From Sphingobacteriales bacterium (GTDB lineage Bacteria; Bacteroidota; Bacteroidia; Chitinophagales; Chitinophagaceae), in NCBI GenBank assembly GCA_003963365.1, contig RXJG01000004.1:1246554-1310553 (forward strand): a stretch of 64,000 nt of DNA, read 5' to 3'. The position numbers and the translations under genes are program-made. Below the pieces are notes generated by a model. It searched no databases. It was not told the DNA's origin and saw only the letters and a program-made list of their open reading frames with translations. Below, one piece after another: positions 2,344 to 10,034 of this stretch; the stretch's first letter is position 1; the number at the start of each line of letters is the position of its first letter.

Positions 2344-2427
2344 ATGCTCAACAGCAAAGGATATTTCTGGTTTTACTTTTACTTCTATTTTACTAATAGA
2401 CCGGGAATGCTTTTGTTGAACGCTTAA
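2344..2427 (+). CDS. Aromatic amino-acid operon leader peptide (27 residues)
   Basis: A 27-codon reading frame beginning ATG CTC AAC and ending TAA encodes ten consecutive aromatic residues, YFWFYFYFYF (five Phe, four Tyr, one Trp), at codons 7-16 (2362-2391). It stands 61 bp upstream of pheA and is followed by a perfect terminator hairpin. This is the classic arrangement of a translated attenuator peptide such as PheL or TrpL. As with most genes here, no Shine-Dalgarno sequence is visible. Ten aromatic codons in a row immediately before an aromatic biosynthesis operon are very unlikely by chance. Confidence 0.9.
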   Translation: MLNSKGYFWFYFYFYFTNRPGMLLLNA

Positions 2428-2487
2428 ACTAGACAGAACTAAAACAACATAAAGAGTCCCGGTAAAAAACCGGGACTCTTGCTTTTA
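2348..2487 (+). promoter_or_regulatory. Ribosome-mediated transcription attenuator of the aromatic operon
   Basis: Four pairing segments can be traced. Segment 1 (2348-2370) pairs with segment 2 (2401-2419): TCAACA with TGTTGA, AAAG with CTTT, and 2362-2370 with 2401-2409 including G-U pairs. Segment 2 (2400-2406, ACCGGGA) can instead pair perfectly with segment 3 (2457-2463, TCCCGGT). Segments 3 and 4 form an 11-bp terminator, AAGAGTCCCGG / CCGGGACTCTT (2452-2462 with 2470-2480), followed by GCTTTTAT. A ribosome stalled on the aromatic codons in segment 1 would free segment 2 to block the terminator. A ribosome reaching the stop codon would cover segment 2 and allow termination. Confidence 0.88.
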
Positions 2488-2488
2488 T

Positions 2489-3319
2489 ATGACAACAAGA
2501 GTCTCCATACAAGGCTATGAAGGCAGTTTTCACCAGGTGGCTGCACAACAATTTTTCGGAAAAGAGACCGAAGTGATTCCATGCGCTACTTTTAAGGAAG
2601 TGGTAAAGATTGCTGCAAACAAAAAGGAAAGTAATGGCGGAGTAATGGCAATTGAAAATTCTATTGCCGGCAGTATTTTGCCTAACTACAATTTACTTCA
2701 AAAAAGTAATCTTAAAATTGTTGGTGAGATTTATTTACAGATTCGCCAAAACCTCCTGGTGAATCCCGGTGTGAAGCTGGAAGATATCCGTGAAGTCCAT
2801 TCTCACCCAATGGCCATCCTTCAATGTTTGGAATACCTGGAAAAATTTAACTGGAAATTAATTGAAACAGAAGATACGGCGTTAAGTGCAAAACATATTC
2901 ATCAGCATCGCAGTAAACATACTGCTGCCATTGCCAGTAAGCTGGCTGCCGAATTATTTAAGTTGGAAGTGATTACTCCTAATATTCACACGATGAAAAA
3001 TAATTACACGAGGTTTTTGATTTTACAAAGAGAAGATGTGGCTCAGCCGGTGAATGATGCTAATAAAGCTTCGGTTAATTTTCACACCGACCATTCAAGA
3101 GGAAGTTTGGCAAAAGTGCTTACCGCTATTTCCAATGGTGGTATAAATTTGAGCAAACTGCAAAGTTTTCCTATTCCGGGAAGTGATTTTAAATACAGTT
3201 TTCATGCAGATATGGAATTTGATACAATAGAGCAGTTCAATAAAGTAATAGATGAAGTAAAACCATTGACGGCTGAGTTGAAAGTGTATGGAACATATAA
3301 AAGAGGAATGTGGAAATAG
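2489..3319 (+). CDS. pheA: Prephenate dehydratase (monofunctional, with ACT domain)
   Basis: Converts prephenate to phenylpyruvate, the committed step to phenylalanine. The 276 residues hold the catalytic domain (about 3-180; AIENSIAGS at 54-62, NNYTRFLIL with the catalytic Thr-Arg-Phe at 174-176) and a C-terminal ACT domain (about 195-270) for Phe feedback. The ACT Phe-binding motif usually written ESRP appears as SKLQSFP here. There is no N-terminal chorismate mutase domain; that activity is fused to the DAHP synthase downstream. The ATG lies 8 bases after the attenuator terminator stem, so this is the first structural gene of the operon. Confidence 0.95.
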   Translation: MTTRVSIQGYEGSFHQVAAQQFFGKETEVIPCATFKEVVKIAANKKESNGGVMAIENSIAGSILPNYNLLQKSNLKIVGEIYLQIRQNLLVNPGVKLEDIREVHSHPMAILQCLEYLEKFNWKLIETEDTALSAKHIHQHRSKHTAAIASKLAAELFKLEVITPNIHTMKNNYTRFLILQREDVAQPVNDANKASVNFHTDHSRGSLAKVLTAISNGGINLSKLQSFPIPGSDFKYSFHADMEFDTIEQFNKVIDEVKPLTAELKVYGTYKRGMWK

Positions 3320-3376
3320 TTTGTCTGAACCACTATTTGCGGATATAAATGATTAAAAGGAAAAGAGCATATTAAT

Positions 3377-4540
3377 ATGATTCAAACATCAAAAAGATTA
3401 GAGGGAATTGGAGAATATTATTTTTCTCAGAAGCTGAGAGAGATTGATGAACTGAATAAGCAGGGGAAGAATATTATTAATCTTGGTATCGGCAGTCCTG
3501 ATTTGCCGCCGCATCCTGATGTGATTAAAGTATTACAGGAAGAAAGCAGCAAACCCAATACACATGCTTATCAATCGTATAAAGGTTCGCCGGTGTTGCG
3601 TAAGGCTATGAGTGATTGGTATAATAAATGGTATGGTGTTGAATTAAATCCTGATACGGAAGTATTACCGCTGATAGGAAGCAAAGAAGGTATCATGCAC
3701 ATCTGCATGACTTATTTAAACGATGGCGATAAAGTTTTAATTCCTAATCCCGGTTATCCAACGTATACCAGTGCGGTAAAATTAGCAGGTGGAACTTGTG
3801 TGGAGTATGAACTGCATGATGATAACGACTGGAAACCTGACTTTGCCGAACTGGAAAAAATGGATTTGAATAGTGTGAAGCTGATGTTTGTGAATTATCC
3901 GCATATGCCAACCGGTAAATTGCCGGAACAAAAATTCTTTGAAGAACTGGTGGCATTTGCCAAAAAGCACAGCATCTTAATTGTTCATGATAATCCATAC
4001 AGTTTTATTTTGAATGATTCACCTATGAGTTTATTAAGTGTGAATGATGCAAAAGAAGTGGTGCTGGAATTAAACTCGTTGAGTAAAAGCCAGAATATGG
4101 CAGGATGGAGAATTGGAATGTTGTGTGCGGCCAAAGAAAGAATTGATGAAGTGCTTCGCTTTAAAAGCAATATGGATAGTGGAATGTTTTTGCCGGTGCA
4201 GTTAGCAGCAGCAAAAGCATTAAGTCTGGGTAAAGACTGGTATGATAGTGTGAATGCTGTGTACAAACGCAGAAGAGAAAAAGCATTTGAGTTACTGGAC
4301 TTGTTAGGTTGCAAATATTCCAAAGACCAGGCGGGAATGTTTGTATGGGCTAAAATCAACAGCCGTTACAAAGATTGTTATGATTGTGCTGATTTTGTTT
4401 TATACAACAGCAACGTATTTATTACACCCGGTGGAATATTTGGTAATGCCGGTAACAATTATGTTCGGGTAAGTTTATGTGCTACCGAAGAAAAATTTGA
4501 AGAGAGTATCAACCGTATTAAAAACAGTTTGAAAAATTGA
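3377..4540 (+). CDS. Pyridoxal-phosphate aminotransferase (class I/II), likely aromatic or prephenate aminotransferase
   Basis: A 387-residue fold-type I aminotransferase. The PLP lysine is Lys237 in SLSKSQNMAGWRIG, and the ring-contacting Asp is Asp205 in HDNPY. The signature usually written NPNNPTG is NYPHMPTG (173-180), with Met177 where Asn is expected. Sitting between pheA and tyrA, it most likely catalyses the final transamination to Phe/Tyr or acts on prephenate. By sequence it looks closest to the aspartate/LL-diaminopimelate aminotransferase group, so the exact substrate is an inference from the operon. Confidence 0.88.
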   Translation: MIQTSKRLEGIGEYYFSQKLREIDELNKQGKNIINLGIGSPDLPPHPDVIKVLQEESSKPNTHAYQSYKGSPVLRKAMSDWYNKWYGVELNPDTEVLPLIGSKEGIMHICMTYLNDGDKVLIPNPGYPTYTSAVKLAGGTCVEYELHDDNDWKPDFAELEKMDLNSVKLMFVNYPHMPTGKLPEQKFFEELVAFAKKHSILIVHDNPYSFILNDSPMSLLSVNDAKEVVLELNSLSKSQNMAGWRIGMLCAAKERIDEVLRFKSNMDSGMFLPVQLAAAKALSLGKDWYDSVNAVYKRRREKAFELLDLLGCKYSKDQAGMFVWAKINSRYKDCYDCADFVLYNSNVFITPGGIFGNAGNNYVRVSLCATEEKFEESINRIKNSLKN

Positions 4541-4550
4541 TTGATATAAG

Positions 4551-5399
4551 ATGTTTAATAACCTGGCGATAATAGGCACCGGTTTAATTGGAGGTTCTTT
4601 CAGTTTGTGTCTGAAAGAAAGAGGATTGGTTAAACATACCATTGGAGTAAGCCGTACACAGAAGAGTGCAAACAAAGCACTGGAACTGGGAATTGTAGAT
4701 GAAATTCTTCCATTGGAAGAAGCAGTGAAGAAAGCTGATTTGATTTATGTAGCCATTCCTGTTGATGTTACTATCCCAACCATGGAAAAGATAATGGACA
4801 TAGTTACGGATAAACAAATAGTGGTGGATGCAGGCTCAACAAAATATGCGTTATGCAGTGCATTAGCCAATCATACCAGGCGGAGTCGTTTTGTGGCATC
4901 GCATCCCATGTGGGGAACCGAGTATAGTGGTCCTGAAGCAGCAGTGAGAGAAGCTTTTACCGGGAGAGCCTGTGTGATTTGTGAAAAAGAAAAGAGTGAT
5001 AAAGATGCGCTGGAAGCAGTAGAAAAAATTTACCGTGACTTAGGAATGCATATTGTGTACATGGATGCAGCTGCACATGACATACATGCTGCGTATGTAA
5101 GTCATATATCTCATATCACTTCATTTGCTTTGGCGAATACGGTGTTAGAAAAAGAAAAAGAAGAGGATGCCATTTTTGAATTAGCGGGTGGTGGTTTTGA
5201 AAGTACCGTACGTTTGGCCAAGAGTAACCCGGCCATGTGGGTGCCCATTTTTATGCAGAATAAAGAAAATATTCTGGATGTATTGAATGAACATATCAGC
5301 CAGTTAAGAAAGTTTAAGGCAAGTTTGGAAAAAGAGAATGCTGAATATTTGCTGGAGCTGATTGAAAATGCGAATAAGATAAGGAGGATTATTAAGTAG
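4551..5399 (+). CDS. tyrA: Prephenate dehydrogenase
   Basis: Oxidatively decarboxylates prephenate (or arogenate) toward tyrosine. The 282-residue protein starts with a Rossmann NAD(P) motif, IIGTGLIGGS (7-16), followed by GSTK, SHPMWGTEYSGPEAA and the helical C-terminal domain with VSHISHITSFALA, which carries the catalytic His of the family. There is no ACT or chorismate mutase extension. It starts 10 bases after the aminotransferase stop. A 162-bp gap with a short heptad element follows before the DAHP synthase. Confidence 0.94.
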   Translation: MFNNLAIIGTGLIGGSFSLCLKERGLVKHTIGVSRTQKSANKALELGIVDEILPLEEAVKKADLIYVAIPVDVTIPTMEKIMDIVTDKQIVVDAGSTKYALCSALANHTRRSRFVASHPMWGTEYSGPEAAVREAFTGRACVICEKEKSDKDALEAVEKIYRDLGMHIVYMDAAAHDIHAAYVSHISHITSFALANTVLEKEKEEDAIFELAGGGFESTVRLAKSNPAMWVPIFMQNKENILDVLNEHISQLRKFKASLEKENAEYLLELIENANKIRRIIK

Positions 5400-5404
5400 T
5401 TATT

Positions 5405-5425
5405 TTGAATGATGAATGTTGAATG
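5405..5425. repeat. Heptad-repeat element, three units
   Basis: Three tandem 7-mers, TTGAATG ATGAATG TTGAATG, just after the tyrA stop codon. It is the same kind of unit as the element at 6648-6675. Nothing else is recognisable in the 162-bp tyrA to aroG spacer. Confidence 0.6.
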
Positions 5426-5561
5426 AAAAGTTTTCACGATTGACGAAAAGAAGAATAAAGAACAGGACGTACAAGTGAGTGACACAACAGCAGCTGAAAA
5501 AAGTTTTAGCTGCCGGTAACATAAAAACAAAACCAAATTTTAATAGTTTAATTTTGACATC

Positions 5562-6647
5562 ATGCAAGCAACACAAACAGTGAATGAAAAAGCACAGGCG
5601 GCGTGGAATAAAAGACCGCTGGTGATTTCTGGTCCGTGCAGTGCGGAGACAGAAGAACAAGTAATTGAAACTGCCCGGCGACTGGCAGCAACCGGTAAAG
5701 TAGACATGCTGCGGGCCGGTATCTGGAAACCACGTACCAAACCCGGAATGTTTGAAGGAGTTGGCGCCAAAGGTTTGCCCTGGTTACAACAGGCGAAGAA
5801 ATTAACCGGTTTGCCAACGACAGTAGAAGTAGCTACCGGCAAACAGGTAGAAGATGCCTTAACTTTTGATGTGGATGTATTATGGATAGGTGCCCGTACA
5901 ACGGTAAACCCTTTTAGCGTACAGGAGGTGGCTGATGCACTGCGTGGGGTAGATGTACCCGTGTTAATTAAAAACCCTATCAATCCTGATTTGGAATTGT
6001 GGAGTGGTGCCGTTGAACGTATAGCAAGAGTGGGTGTAAAACAAATTGGTTTGATTCACCGTGGGTTTAGTGCCTATGGTAATACCGAATACCGTAATGC
6101 TCCGATGTGGCACCTGGCTATTGAAATGAAACGCCGCAATCCCGGTATGATGATTATTAATGACCCTTCACATATTTGTGGACGCAGGGATATATTGATG
6201 GATGTGGCTCAAAAAGCGATTGATCTTGACTTTGACGGGTTGATGATTGAAAGTCATATTGACCCTGATAAAGCATGGAGTGATGCCAAACAACAAGTTA
6301 CCCCGGAAGCACTGGGTGAAATGATCAGTTCCATTAAATGGCGTAAAGAAGATGTTGCTTCTGATGAGTTTCATTCCGCACTGGAAAAATTACGTCAGCA
6401 AATTAATCACCTCGATGATGAACTGATGGATTTATTAGGTCAGCGTATGAAGATTGCTGAAAAGATTGGTGAATACAAAAAGAATAACAGCGTAACTATT
6501 TTACAGACCAACCGATGGAATTCCATATTGGAAAGAGCTTTTGCAAAAGGTGAGAAGTTAGGATTGAGCAAAGAATTCATCACCAAGTATTTTGATGCGG
6601 TGCATATGGAAAGCATCAATAAGCAAAACAGGATTATGAATTCATAA
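5562..6647 (+). CDS. Bifunctional DAHP synthase / chorismate mutase
   Basis: Joins the first shikimate-pathway step (PEP + erythrose 4-phosphate to DAHP) with chorismate to prephenate. Residues 15-265 form a short type I-beta DAHP synthase (SGPCSAE at 23-29, RAGIWKPRTKPG, IGLIHRGFSAYG, NDPSHICGRRD). Residues 273-358 form an AroQ-type helical chorismate mutase (LEKLRQQINHLDDELMDLLGQR, then KKN and LQTNRW). The same domain order is known from Prevotella-type enzymes, where the mutase domain acts as an allosteric unit for prephenate (established for that family; assumed here). At 361 residues it is full length. Confidence 0.93.
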   Translation: MQATQTVNEKAQAAWNKRPLVISGPCSAETEEQVIETARRLAATGKVDMLRAGIWKPRTKPGMFEGVGAKGLPWLQQAKKLTGLPTTVEVATGKQVEDALTFDVDVLWIGARTTVNPFSVQEVADALRGVDVPVLIKNPINPDLELWSGAVERIARVGVKQIGLIHRGFSAYGNTEYRNAPMWHLAIEMKRRNPGMMIINDPSHICGRRDILMDVAQKAIDLDFDGLMIESHIDPDKAWSDAKQQVTPEALGEMISSIKWRKEDVASDEFHSALEKLRQQINHLDDELMDLLGQRMKIAEKIGEYKKNNSVTILQTNRWNSILERAFAKGEKLGLSKEFITKYFDAVHMESINKQNRIMNS

Positions 6648-6675
6648 GTGAATGGTGAATAGTCAATGGTGAATG
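6648..6675. repeat. 28-bp heptad-repeat element (four 7-mers)
   Basis: GTGAATG GTGAATA GTCAATG GTGAATG fills most of the spacer between the DAHP synthase/chorismate mutase stop and aroB. It has exactly the 4 x 7 structure seen inside aroA and elsewhere. Confidence 0.8.
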
Positions 6676-6688
6676 ATATAAATGAACA

Positions 6689-7717
6689 ATGAAAGAATTA
6701 AAGTACCAGTTTTCTAAACGGGAGGTGACATATTACCTGGATGCTGAATTTTCTTATTTGGAAAATTTGGTTGAGAGGAATAATACAGTACTGATACTGG
6801 ATGAGAATGTTGCCGGTTATCATAAAGAAAAACTGGAAGGGTGGAAGACGATTGTAATACCGCCGGGGGAAGCTTATAAACAACAATCAACCGTTGATTC
6901 TATTATTCATCAGCTGATAAAAATTGGAGCAGACAGAAAAACATTTTTAGTGGGAGTTGGTGGAGGTGTGATTACGGATATGACCGGTTATGTTGCTTCC
7001 GTGTATATGCGTGGTGTGCAATTTGGTTTTGTTCCCACTACTTTGCTGAGTATGGTGGATGCTTCTATTGGTGGAAAGAATGGAGTAGATATTGGTATTT
7101 ACAAGAACCTCGTTGGTACAATTAATCAACCAAAGTTTATTTTATTTGACTATTCACTGCTGCAAACATTGCCCGAAGCAGAATGGGTTAATGGTTGTGC
7201 CGAAATGATAAAGCATGGTTGTATAAAAGATGCCGGTTTATTTCAGTTGCTGGAAGAAAACAATCTTTCATCTATTCAATCAAATGCATCATTGTTTGCT
7301 TCTGTCATCGAAAGAAATGTGACAATCAAATCCGATGTAGTTAAGAACGATGAATTTGAAAATGGTGAAAGAAGATTACTCAACTTTGGCCATACGCTGG
7401 CGCATGCCATTGAGAATAATTATCAATTATCTCATGGACAGGCAGTAAGTATTGGAATGGTGGTGGCAGCAGCCATATCGGAAACGATTAATCGTTTTAG
7501 TGCCGGTGATAAAGCAAGATTGATTAAAGTATTGCAGCAATATCAACTGCCGGTACAATTTTCTTACAATAAAGAAAAAGCTTTTGAAACACTGGTGATG
7601 GATAAAAAGAGGTCAGGTAATGCCATGAATTATGTATTGCTGAAATCAATTGGTGAAGCAGAGGTTAAATCCATTCCTTTAGAACAATTAAAAGAATTAT
7701 TGCTACAAACGAATTAA
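6689..7717 (+). CDS. aroB: 3-dehydroquinate synthase
   Basis: Cyclises DAHP to 3-dehydroquinate, using NAD and a divalent metal. The 342 residues include the NAD-binding GVGGGVITDMTGYVAS region, the conserved TTLLSMVDASIGGKNGVD block, and the metal ligands Glu in GCAEMIKHG, His in FGHTLAHAIE and His in LSHGQAVSIGM. It is the fifth structural gene of the aromatic operon. Its start codon lies 41 bases after the preceding stop, within a spacer largely made of a heptad element. Confidence 0.95.
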   Translation: MKELKYQFSKREVTYYLDAEFSYLENLVERNNTVLILDENVAGYHKEKLEGWKTIVIPPGEAYKQQSTVDSIIHQLIKIGADRKTFLVGVGGGVITDMTGYVASVYMRGVQFGFVPTTLLSMVDASIGGKNGVDIGIYKNLVGTINQPKFILFDYSLLQTLPEAEWVNGCAEMIKHGCIKDAGLFQLLEENNLSSIQSNASLFASVIERNVTIKSDVVKNDEFENGERRLLNFGHTLAHAIENNYQLSHGQAVSIGMVVAAAISETINRFSAGDKARLIKVLQQYQLPVQFSYNKEKAFETLVMDKKRSGNAMNYVLLKSIGEAEVKSIPLEQLKELLLQTN

Positions 7718-7720
7718 ACA

Positions 7721-9022
7721 ATGAATGTAACGATATCACCTTCTACAGTAAACGGAACAATACAGACCCCCACTTCTAAAAGTTCGATGCAAAGGGCTTG
7801 TGCGGCAGCTTTACTGGTGAAAGGAAAGAGTGTGATAAAGAATCCCGGTTTCTCCAATGATGATAAGGCGGCTATGGATGTGATACAAAAACTGGGAGCG
7901 AAGATTGAAGTTGACAGTTCACAGTTGACAGTAGACAGTATGGGAGTAAATCCTTCAAGACCTGAAATAAATACTGGTGAAAGTGGATTGGGTGTAAGAA
8001 TGTTTACACCTATTGCAGCTTTGAGTGAAAAAGAAATTTTAATTTCCGGTCATGGTAGTTTGATGGAAAGACCAATGAATTTCTTTGATGAAATTTTACC
8101 AAAGCTGGGAGTAAAGATTGAATCCAACAATGGTAAACTCCCAATGAAAATCCAGGGACCATTAAAACCGGCTACTATTGAAATTGATGGTTCATTAAGT
8201 TCGCAATTTCTTACGGGTTTGCTGATGGCCTTTAGTGCAGCAAATGCAAAAGATGTTTCTATCAAAGTAAATAATCTCAAGAGTCGTCCTTATGTTGATT
8301 TAACATTGGCGGTGATGAAAGAATTCGGAATGAAAGTTCCGCAGAATAAAAACTACGAAGCATTTTATTTTGATTCTCTTCCGGTTAACGGTCAACCGTC
8401 AACGGTCAACTATACCGTTGAAGGCGACTGGAGCGGAGGCGCATTCTTGCTTGTTGCTGCAGGAATTGCCGGTGATGTAACAGTAAATGGTTTGCAGAAT
8501 ACATCCACTCAGGCTGATAAAAAAATTATTGATGCTTTACTGGATGCAGGTGCGGATGTAACTGTGAATGAAGATTCAATCCACATCAAAAAAAATAAAC
8601 TGGAAGCATTTAGTTTTGATGCAACAGATTGCCCGGATTTGTTTCCACCATTAGTGGCATTAGCGGCAAATTGTAAAGGCATCACCAAAATACGTGGGTT
8701 ACGCAGATTGAAACATAAAGAAAGTGACCGTGGTGTTACACTCAAAGAAGAGTTTGACAAACTAAGTACAGCAATTGATTTGAATGATGATGAAATGCTG
8801 GTGCATGGTAATGGTGGCATCTTTGTAAAAAACCATACCATGAATTCACATAATGATCATCGTATTGCCATGGCGGTGGCAGTGGCTTGTCTCAATGCAG
8901 ATTTTGATGTGGAAATAAGAAATGCAGAAGCGGTGAATAAATCATACCCTGATTTTTACCAGCACCTGCAAAAACTGGGAGTAAACGTAACTTTACCTAA
9001 TAAGCAAACGGTTCATGAATAG
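7721..9022 (+). CDS. aroA: 3-phosphoshikimate 1-carboxyvinyltransferase (EPSP synthase)
   Basis: Transfers enolpyruvate from PEP to shikimate 3-phosphate. The 433-residue protein has the repeated beta-alpha-beta fold and the usual signatures: SKSSMQRACAAA near the N-terminus, NTGESGLGVRMF, SLSSQFLTGLLMA, and RLKHKESDR with NSHNDHRIAMA near the C-terminus. The start lies 3 bases after the aroB stop, and the 3-prime end overlaps aroC by 8 bases. Two loops (residues 64-73 and about 221-230) are encoded by 28-bp heptad-repeat elements that look like intergenic repeats, yet the frame is intact. The active-site motifs are untouched. Confidence 0.95.
   Translation: MNVTISPSTVNGTIQTPTSKSSMQRACAAALLVKGKSVIKNPGFSNDDKAAMDVIQKLGAKIEVDSSQLTVDSMGVNPSRPEINTGESGLGVRMFTPIAALSEKEILISGHGSLMERPMNFFDEILPKLGVKIESNNGKLPMKIQGPLKPATIEIDGSLSSQFLTGLLMAFSAANAKDVSIKVNNLKSRPYVDLTLAVMKEFGMKVPQNKNYEAFYFDSLPVNGQPSTVNYTVEGDWSGGAFLLVAAGIAGDVTVNGLQNTSTQADKKIIDALLDAGADVTVNEDSIHIKKNKLEAFSFDATDCPDLFPPLVALAANCKGITKIRGLRRLKHKESDRGVTLKEEFDKLSTAIDLNDDEMLVHGNGGIFVKNHTMNSHNDHRIAMAVAVACLNADFDVEIRNAEAVNKSYPDFYQHLQKLGVNVTLPNKQTVHE
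7910..7937. repeat. 28-bp heptad-repeat element inside aroA (first)
   Basis: GTTGACA GTTCACA GTTGACA GTAGACA, four tandem 7-mers. It encodes V64-DSSQLTVDS within a predicted surface loop of EPSP synthase. The element is open in this frame. Confidence 0.85.
8383..8410. repeat. 28-bp heptad-repeat element inside aroA (second)
   Basis: GGTTAAC GGTCAAC CGTCAAC GGTCAAC, four tandem 7-mers. It encodes the loop PVNGQPSTVN just before the conserved YTVEGDWSGG strand. Its unit differs from the first aroA element, so it is not a simple internal duplication. Confidence 0.85.
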
Positions 9023-10034
9023 TTTTGGAAGATTATTACGGGTATCCATATTTGGTGAATCACATGGTGAATGTGTGGGAATAACCATTGATGGTTGTCC
9101 TGCAGGTTTATCATTATCGCCGGAAGATTTATTGGCTGATTTGGAAAGAAGAAAAGGTGGTAAACAAAAAGGAACCACACCAAGACAGGAAGAAGATTAT
9201 CCCATTTTTAAAAGTGGTGTGTTTAATGGAAAGACAACCGGTTTCCCCATCACCATTTTATTCGAAAATAAAAATACCCGCAGCGAAGATTATAACAAAC
9301 AAAGAAGTATACCACGGCCGGGCCATGCAGACTGGACAGCACATCAAAAGTTTGGCGGTAATGAAGATTACCGTGGCGGCGGACATTTCAGTGCAAGATT
9401 AACTACAGGTATTGTAGCTGCAGGCGCCATTGCAAAAAAATTAATGCATGGCATCAGCATTCATGCCGGGGTAACAGAGATAGGTGGTGAAAAAGATTTG
9501 GAGAAGGGATTGCAGAAAGCAATCGATGCAAAAGATTCTGTTGGTGGAGTGGTAGAGTGTAAGGTAACCGGTATGCCTGTTGGTATTGGTGAGCCGTATT
9601 TTGATTCTGTAGAATCTGTTTTATCGCATATATTATTTGCTATTCCTGCCGTACGGGGAGTCGAGTTTGGTACTGGCTTCGCAGCAGCAAAAATGTTTGG
9701 CAGTGAGCATAATGATGCCATTGAGAATATGCAGGGCAAAACAGTAAGCAATCATGCAGGTGGAGTAGTAGGTGGAATCAGTAATGGAAATGATTTAGTT
9801 TTTCGCCTGGCAATTAAACCAACTTCTTCTACACCCAAAGAACAATACAGTTTAAACTGGGATACAGAACAAATGGAAAATTTTTCCATTAAAGGAAGAC
9901 ATGATCTGTGTGTGGCATTAAGAGCACCGGTTATTGTGGAAGCAGTAACAGCATTAGTGCTGGCTGATTTTATGTTATTGGAACAACGTATACCAAGAGT
10001 GTTGCCCGTTTCGGGAATAATGAATAAAGAATAA
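9015..10034 (+). CDS. aroC: Chorismate synthase
   Basis: Converts EPSP to chorismate with reduced FMN. The 339 residues carry the family signatures: FGESHGECVGITIDGCPAG near the N-terminus, RPGHADWTA, GGGHFSARLT, GVEFGTGF and GRHDLCVALRAPVIVEA. It overlaps aroA by 8 bases, so coupling is likely. It appears to be the last biosynthetic gene of the operon. An inverted pair of heptad elements follows, the first of which starts inside the last codons of the gene. Confidence 0.95.
   Translation: MNSFGRLLRVSIFGESHGECVGITIDGCPAGLSLSPEDLLADLERRKGGKQKGTTPRQEEDYPIFKSGVFNGKTTGFPITILFENKNTRSEDYNKQRSIPRPGHADWTAHQKFGGNEDYRGGGHFSARLTTGIVAAGAIAKKLMHGISIHAGVTEIGGEKDLEKGLQKAIDAKDSVGGVVECKVTGMPVGIGEPYFDSVESVLSHILFAIPAVRGVEFGTGFAAAKMFGSEHNDAIENMQGKTVSNHAGGVVGGISNGNDLVFRLAIKPTSSTPKEQYSLNWDTEQMENFSIKGRHDLCVALRAPVIVEAVTALVLADFMLLEQRIPRVLPVSGIMNKE

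Follow-up and report, generated by a model that had tools for sequence, protein, structure and literature searches.

A probable ribosome-mediated attenuator with a phenylalanine/tyrosine leader peptide and a predicted leaderless start ahead of the pheA operon in Chitinophagaceae

The attenuators of E. coli pheL-pheA and trpL (RF01859 and RF00513, respectively) combine a leader peptide containing codons for the product amino acid, a set of 1:2, 2:3 and 3:4 pairings in the leader RNA, and a terminator before the first structural gene. A leader with two aromatic amino acids is known from Corynebacterium glutamicum, where a Phe-Tyr-Phe leader precedes the DAHP synthase operon (aroR-aroF; Neshat et al. 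2014, cited in PMC11802643) and stalling at the aromatic codons of aroR reportedly raises transcription. Leader peptides that are translated from leaderless transcripts have been described for S. meliloti trpL (PMC7298713) and for S. lividans trpL, leuL, ilvL and thrL (PMC8079986). In Bacteroidetes, the Bacteroid-trp RNA (RF01692; PMC2864571) is a predicted cis-regulatory RNA found before amino-acid operons, and leader-peptide attenuation has been inferred in F. psychrophilum (PMC9723704). No published Bacteroidota pheA leader was found in a literature search largely confined to papers outside subscription. Comparative surveys by Vitreschak et al. in 2004 and Lopatovskaya et al. in 2010 may cover leaders of Bacteroidetes.

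The window, i.e. the whole stretch of 64,000 nucleotides analysed from a Sphingobacteriales bacterium of the family Chitinophagaceae (contig RXJG01000004.1), includes a seven-gene cluster beginning with pheA and preceded by a short ORF, alternative RNA pairings and a promoter-like box. The features are as follows.

2309-2311, + strand: possible -33 TTG element, 20 nt before the -7 box (weak, from sequence alone)
2332-2339, + strand: -7 promoter box TACTTTCG (consensus TAnnTTTG, Bacteroidota primary sigma factor), 4 nt before the leader ATG
2344-2427, + strand: leader peptide ORF, 27 codons, MLNSKGYFWFYFYFYFTNRPGMLLLNA (predicted transcription start 2344-2345)
2352-2373, + strand: segment 1, pairing with 2398-2418 (MFE fold)
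2362-2391, + strand: regulatory codons 7-16, YFWFYFYFYF (run kept in 100 of 104 family genomes)
2398-2418, + strand: segment 2, within the leader ORF, with the core 2400-2406 (ACCGGGA) that pairs with segment 3 (MFE fold, covariation and stall simulation)
2452-2463, + strand: segment 3, the 5' arm of the predicted terminator, with the antiterminator partner at 2457-2463 (pairing)
2469-2480, + strand: segment 4, the 3' arm of the predicted terminator, followed by GCTTTTATAT (pairing)
2489-3319, + strand: pheA, prephenate dehydratase, heading the operon under control (PF00800, E 3.7e-58)
3377-4540, + strand: class I/II aminotransferase (PF00155)
4551-5399, + strand: tyrA, prephenate dehydrogenase (PF02153 and PF20463)
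5562-6647, + strand: aroG/CM, DAHP synthase fused to chorismate mutase (PF00793 and PF01817)
6689-7717, + strand: aroB, 3-dehydroquinate synthase (PF01761 and PF24621)
7721-9022, + strand: aroA, EPSP synthase (PF00275)
9015-10034, + strand: aroC, chorismate synthase (PF01264)

As read from the sequence, the mechanism is the classical trp/phe attenuator principle in a lineage-specific variant. The locus differs from pheL and trpL of E. coli in that its leader mixes Phe and Tyr codons, segment 2 is located within the leader ORF, ahead of the stop codon, the start is predicted to be leaderless with a TAnnTTTG-type promoter, and the genes that follow include shikimate, Phe and Tyr genes together. 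The initial annotation had set a mixed leader against the single-amino-acid PheL and TrpL; the mixture of Phe and Tyr stands, though it was already known from C. glutamicum AroR (PMC11802643), which is actinobacterial, has three aromatic codons and reportedly responds to Phe but not to Tyr limitation. The S. meliloti and S. lividans leaders resemble the window leader in that the attenuator ORF starts at the 5' end of the transcript, which is predicted from promoter position in the window and was derived from transcript 5' ends in those other phyla. Bacteroid-trp RNA is a different, trp-associated motif, and the accessible text of the F. psychrophilum account (PMC9723704) names neither a Phe/Tyr leader nor a leaderless start. 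As far as searched, the joint occurrence of a Phe/Tyr run, a segment 2 placed within the ORF and a leaderless start predicted across the family is new for Bacteroidota. No Rfam family matched the window at the gathering threshold; for Phe_leader (RF01859), there was no match for L001 up to E 0.5, and the relative L100 reached 29 of the 55 bits needed.

The gene content of the operon, predicted in the initial annotation to supply shikimate intermediates, Phe and Tyr, is borne out by the Pfam assignments. The seven genes (2489-10034, all on the + strand) cover much of the common pathway and the Phe and Tyr branches, a content that matches Phe/Tyr sensing, and Pfam identified no trp gene among the seven. 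Given their close spacing on one strand, the genes from pheA to aroC would form a single transcript. Further upstream, 1833-2036 encodes a Lys/Thr-rich small protein of 67 aa with a lipoprotein-like start (MMKKALLAFAIVAFVACNS) and no Pfam match, and a terminator-like hairpin follows it at 2143-2170. An imperfect palindrome (AACCATGAA...TTCATGGT, 2176-2250), of which the genome has one partial second copy, lies between this terminator and the attenuator promoter.

Translation of 2344-2427 gives the 27-codon leader peptide that had been proposed, with ten aromatic codons in succession at codons 7-16. No ATG ORF with a stretch of eight aromatic codons in eight arose in 2000 dinucleotide shuffles of 2037-2488. 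Likewise, an ORF with seven aromatic codons in eight was present in 93 of the 104 real pheA upstream regions of the family and in none of 1040 shuffles of the relatives' upstream DNA. The codons of the run in relatives are TTT, TTC, TAT or TAC in 810 of 851 cases, and their third base varies synonymously, as is expected of a translated tract. The C-terminal part of the leader peptide is conserved as either RPGMLLL or SRVVFAK. As segment 2 is located inside the leader ORF, this part is probably kept for its RNA.

The family sample comprised 149 genomes, in 104 of which PheA was found, and 100 of the 104 carry a short aromatic-run ORF before pheA. The leader was found in all nine close relatives of the window genome and in 76 of 80 title-bearing loci, for example in Niastella, Filimonas, Flavihumibacter, Segetibacter, Terrimonas and Sediminibacterium. 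With a looser criterion (five of eight codons aromatic), it was also detected in 45 of 65 genomes from other families of the class. By the leader criterion used, a recognisable leader was not found in 4 of the 104 family genomes and in about one third of the other-family genomes. In the four family genomes concerned (L074, L080, L103 and L104), the 600 nt before pheA contain no recognisable aromatic leader; in L074 a 187-codon open frame runs directly ahead of pheA, which may thus not be the first gene there. Two aromatic leader ORFs, each with its own terminator-like hairpin, precede pheA in L098 (G007) and L100 (G108), and tandem aromatic leaders with hairpins also occur before pheA in L191 and L193, which belong to another family of the class, and in L216 (same order). 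These pairs have the appearance of tandem ribosome-mediated attenuators, no description of which was found in the largely non-subscription literature searched.

The entire leader has a folding energy of -44.6 kcal/mol (z -6.96), and equal stability was reached in none of 200 shuffles. Segments 3 and 4 form a hairpin at 2452-2480 with a perfect stem and the tail GCTTTTATAT, ending 8 nt before the pheA ATG at 2489. The perfect terminator stem claimed just before pheA is thus present, with a length of 12 bp (2452-2463 with 2469-2480) rather than 11 bp. The proposed 7-base antiterminator is confirmed as a perfect pairing, 2400-2406 (ACCGGGA) being the exact complement of 2457-2463 (TCCCGGT), and its formation excludes the 3:4 hairpin. 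The 1:2 hairpin is likewise real; its limits in the MFE fold are 2352-2373 and 2398-2418, not 2348-2370 and 2401-2419, and it takes in codons 7-10. Pairing of segments 1 and 2 was seen in the MFE folds of 96 of 100 family leaders, pairing alone being examined.

Covariation of the alternative pairings was assessed by a swap test, in which the best post-leader hairpin was taken for each genome and its 5' arm was scored against the leader stretch after the run, in matched and in swapped genomes. For 2:3, the mean score was 19.6 for matched and 16.9 for swapped genomes (z 12.3, 0 of 5000 permutations, kinship ignored). Among the 36 leaders diverging from the common sequence, the corresponding values were 17.8 and 13.4 (z 10.0, kinship ignored), and matched 1:2 pairings exceeded swapped ones with z 10.0 (kinship ignored). 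Compensatory 2:3 pairs include GCCAGGATT/AATCCTGGC in L012, CCGGAGG/CCTCCGG in L042 and AGCCCGG/CCGGGCT in L102, and the pairs are fully compensated in L082 (GATCGGGT/ACCCGATC) and L093 (AGGCGGGA/TCCCGCCT). In the column alignment, 92.3% of 3:4 positions are paired, and nine of the twelve pairs have changed on both sides somewhere. For 2:3, pairing amounts to 78.7% at the register and 76.5% at +1, so that the register is ambiguous by one base, since the segment is made up of consecutive C and G bases. As this slippage blurs the column alignment, the swap test is the better evidence. Thus, the family alignment for aromatic runs and covarying pairs that the initial annotation had proposed as a check returned both, with the run conserved in 100 of 104 genomes and a z of 12.3 for 2:3.

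Family-wide conservation and covariation strongly support the proposal that a pheA/shikimate operon of Bacteroidota is under ribosome-mediated attenuation. Very probably, the locus controls the pheA-aminotransferase-tyrA-aroG/CM-aroB-aroA-aroC operon as a transcription attenuator sensing charged tRNA-Phe and charged tRNA-Tyr. Transcription would start at the leader AUG or about one nucleotide from it, and the ribosome would probably initiate on a leaderless 5' end. When Phe-tRNA or Tyr-tRNA is scarce, the ribosome would stall in the ten-codon run, covering segment 1 and leaving segment 2 free from about 2400 onward. Free segment 2 could then pair with segment 3 ahead of the synthesis of segment 4, no terminator would form, and the operon would be transcribed. 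When both tRNAs are plentiful, the ribosome would pass segment 2 to the stop codon, allowing the 3:4 hairpin to form and transcription to halt before pheA. If translation is absent, formation of the 1:2 hairpin would again leave 3:4 to terminate.

In simulated stalls with the RNA extended to 2466, all seven 2:3 pairs formed when the first free base was at 2372-2400 and only two when it was at 2404. Stalling across most of the run would hence allow antitermination, and a ribosome reaching segment 2 would forbid it, provided that 2:3 pairing precedes segment 4. With the RNA extended to 2487, so that segment 4 is present, the terminator was the more stable structure. The 2:3 pairing formed in the simulations for 98 of 100 family leaders. 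The 7-bp 2:3 core (-9.6 kcal/mol) is much weaker than the 3:4 hairpin (-22.0 kcal/mol), so antitermination would have to be kinetic, as it is in other attenuators. In the window, about 9 nt separate the last aromatic codon from segment 2; the median over the leaders is 9 nt, and 85 of 94 have 6-11 nt. This is roughly the length that a ribosome covers ahead of its A site, and the gap therefore fits the leading edge of a ribosome stalled in the run. Segment 2 follows the leader stop codon in trpL; here, it lies within the leader ORF, a median of 17 nt upstream of the stop codon.

Most mRNAs of Bacteroidota are leadered, and they lack Shine-Dalgarno sequences. Leaders longer than 10 nt are found in 87% of F. 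johnsoniae transcripts with a probable promoter (PMC6847099), 5' UTRs below 10 nt in 3.7% of cases in B. thetaiotaomicron (PMC7366714), and 5.5% of F. psychrophilum mRNAs are leaderless (PMC9723704). A sigma-70 scan is inapplicable to Bacteroidota promoters. The position of the box TACTTTCG, missed in the initial annotation, would imply leaderless initiation: transcription in F. johnsoniae starts 4 or 5 nt past the -7 box (PMC6847099), and the box located 4 nt before the leader ATG thus predicts a start on the A (2344) or the U (2345) of AUG. The possible -33 TTG is weak evidence, conservation of the -33 motif being poor in Flavobacterium (PMC6847099).

In 74 of 100 family relatives, 3-10 nt separate the end of the box from the leader start (mode 7 nt), as compared with 32 of 2000 samples of shuffled upstream DNA (1.6%), and the position of the box is fixed amid highly diverged upstream sequence. 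The same spacing was found for 20 of 27 his leaders of the family. Among 30 trp leaders, the strict motif is close to the start in seven, and many carry a variant resembling CATATTTG. As a baseline, the motif turned up within 60 nt of only ten out of 246 ordinary ORFs whose upstream DNA is free, and in three of the ten it was at 3-10 nt. Another upstream promoter with an ordinary 5' UTR, the TAnnTTTG-like box being coincidental, would be in keeping with the single mismatch of TACTTTCG to the consensus and with the other families of the class, which mostly have no box near the leader start and show a gap of 15-33 nt where one is found. A leadered start of this kind is nevertheless unlikely for the window, given the fixed close position in the pheA leaders of the family and its recurrence before the his leaders. 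The leaderless start is accordingly predicted family-wide and is not shared by the other families of the class (a close box in 74 of 100 family leaders versus 2 of 45 elsewhere; Fisher p 3e-16, kinship ignored).

The initial annotation had Phe, Tyr and Trp sensed together, and this did not hold up. Tyr occurs in every family leader and Phe dominates the runs, but Trp occurs in merely 18 of 100. Moreover, the same genome has a Trp-Trp-Trp leader (MKQQIQNNHWWWHTTLRGL) before trpE (about G000:C2:1039876), and a Trp-rich leader was present upstream of trpE in 30 of 30 loci examined. The trp leader region of the genome (L276:1215-1312) scored 37.2 bits against the Rfam Trp_leader cut-off of 41 (E 0.00018). 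Given that Trp codons are not conserved and that trpE has its own leader, the pheA leader is best read as a Phe/Tyr sensor. A true sensor of all three amino acids is improbable, even with the one Trp codon within the run in the window genome and its sister genome and with chorismate, their common precursor, among the products of the operon; in this species, an effect of Trp starvation is still conceivable. These observations indicate that Trp is handled apart from Phe and Tyr. Other leaders of the genome include an HHHH leader (MNQNIHMHHHHTCPQR) before hisG (about C4:458492), an ILV-run leader (MLNNRINNVISLLTILVVVVIIIPAHGGGCL) before ilvD (about C2:734398) and a Thr-run leader (MVKQTTYSFSATAISVAASTTTTTTTIR) in the region ahead of an aspartokinase/homoserine dehydrogenase gene (about C2:755794).

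The 3:4 hairpin might instead, or in addition, block ribosome loading at the pheA AUG, from which it is separated by 8 nt in the window, where the U-tract of the terminator copy (GCTTTTATAT) is weak and short. A sequestering hairpin would be expected to stay near the start codon, whereas the distance to pheA in relatives ranges from 6 to 391 nt and is at least 60 nt in 41 of 100. In addition, the best post-leader hairpin of relatives is terminator-like in 100 of 100, with a mean of 5.29 T in the 8 tail positions versus 2.6 expected. The variable distance and the T-rich tails favour termination, and translational attenuation is considered very unlikely. Finally, the genome is T-rich and has 11 sites (14 hits) matching a seven-codon F/Y DNA pattern, equal to the control and uninformative by itself, but a chance combination of the upstream gene's terminator with an open T-rich spacer can be dismissed, as the leader is the sole such site forming a short ATG ORF, a separate terminator-like hairpin (2143-2170) already serves the upstream gene, and conservation, covariation and shuffles exclude it, the family comparison having already refuted it.

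The Phe/Tyr attenuator thus represents a well-conserved, testable class for Bacteroidota, for which the published accounts found offer predictions based on transcriptome maps or on motif searches. It is reasonably probable that Chitinophagaceae run several amino-acid operons (Phe/Tyr, His and probably Trp) by attenuators with leaderless sensor ORFs, as a lineage-specific redesign. If so, ribosome loading would be tied to the 5' end as it emerges from RNA polymerase. The system joins two rarely linked questions, namely how start codons are found without Shine-Dalgarno sequences and how the leader ribosome keeps pace with RNA polymerase, and the natural variants in the family, with compensated stems, tandem copies or no close promoter, may serve as ready experiments.
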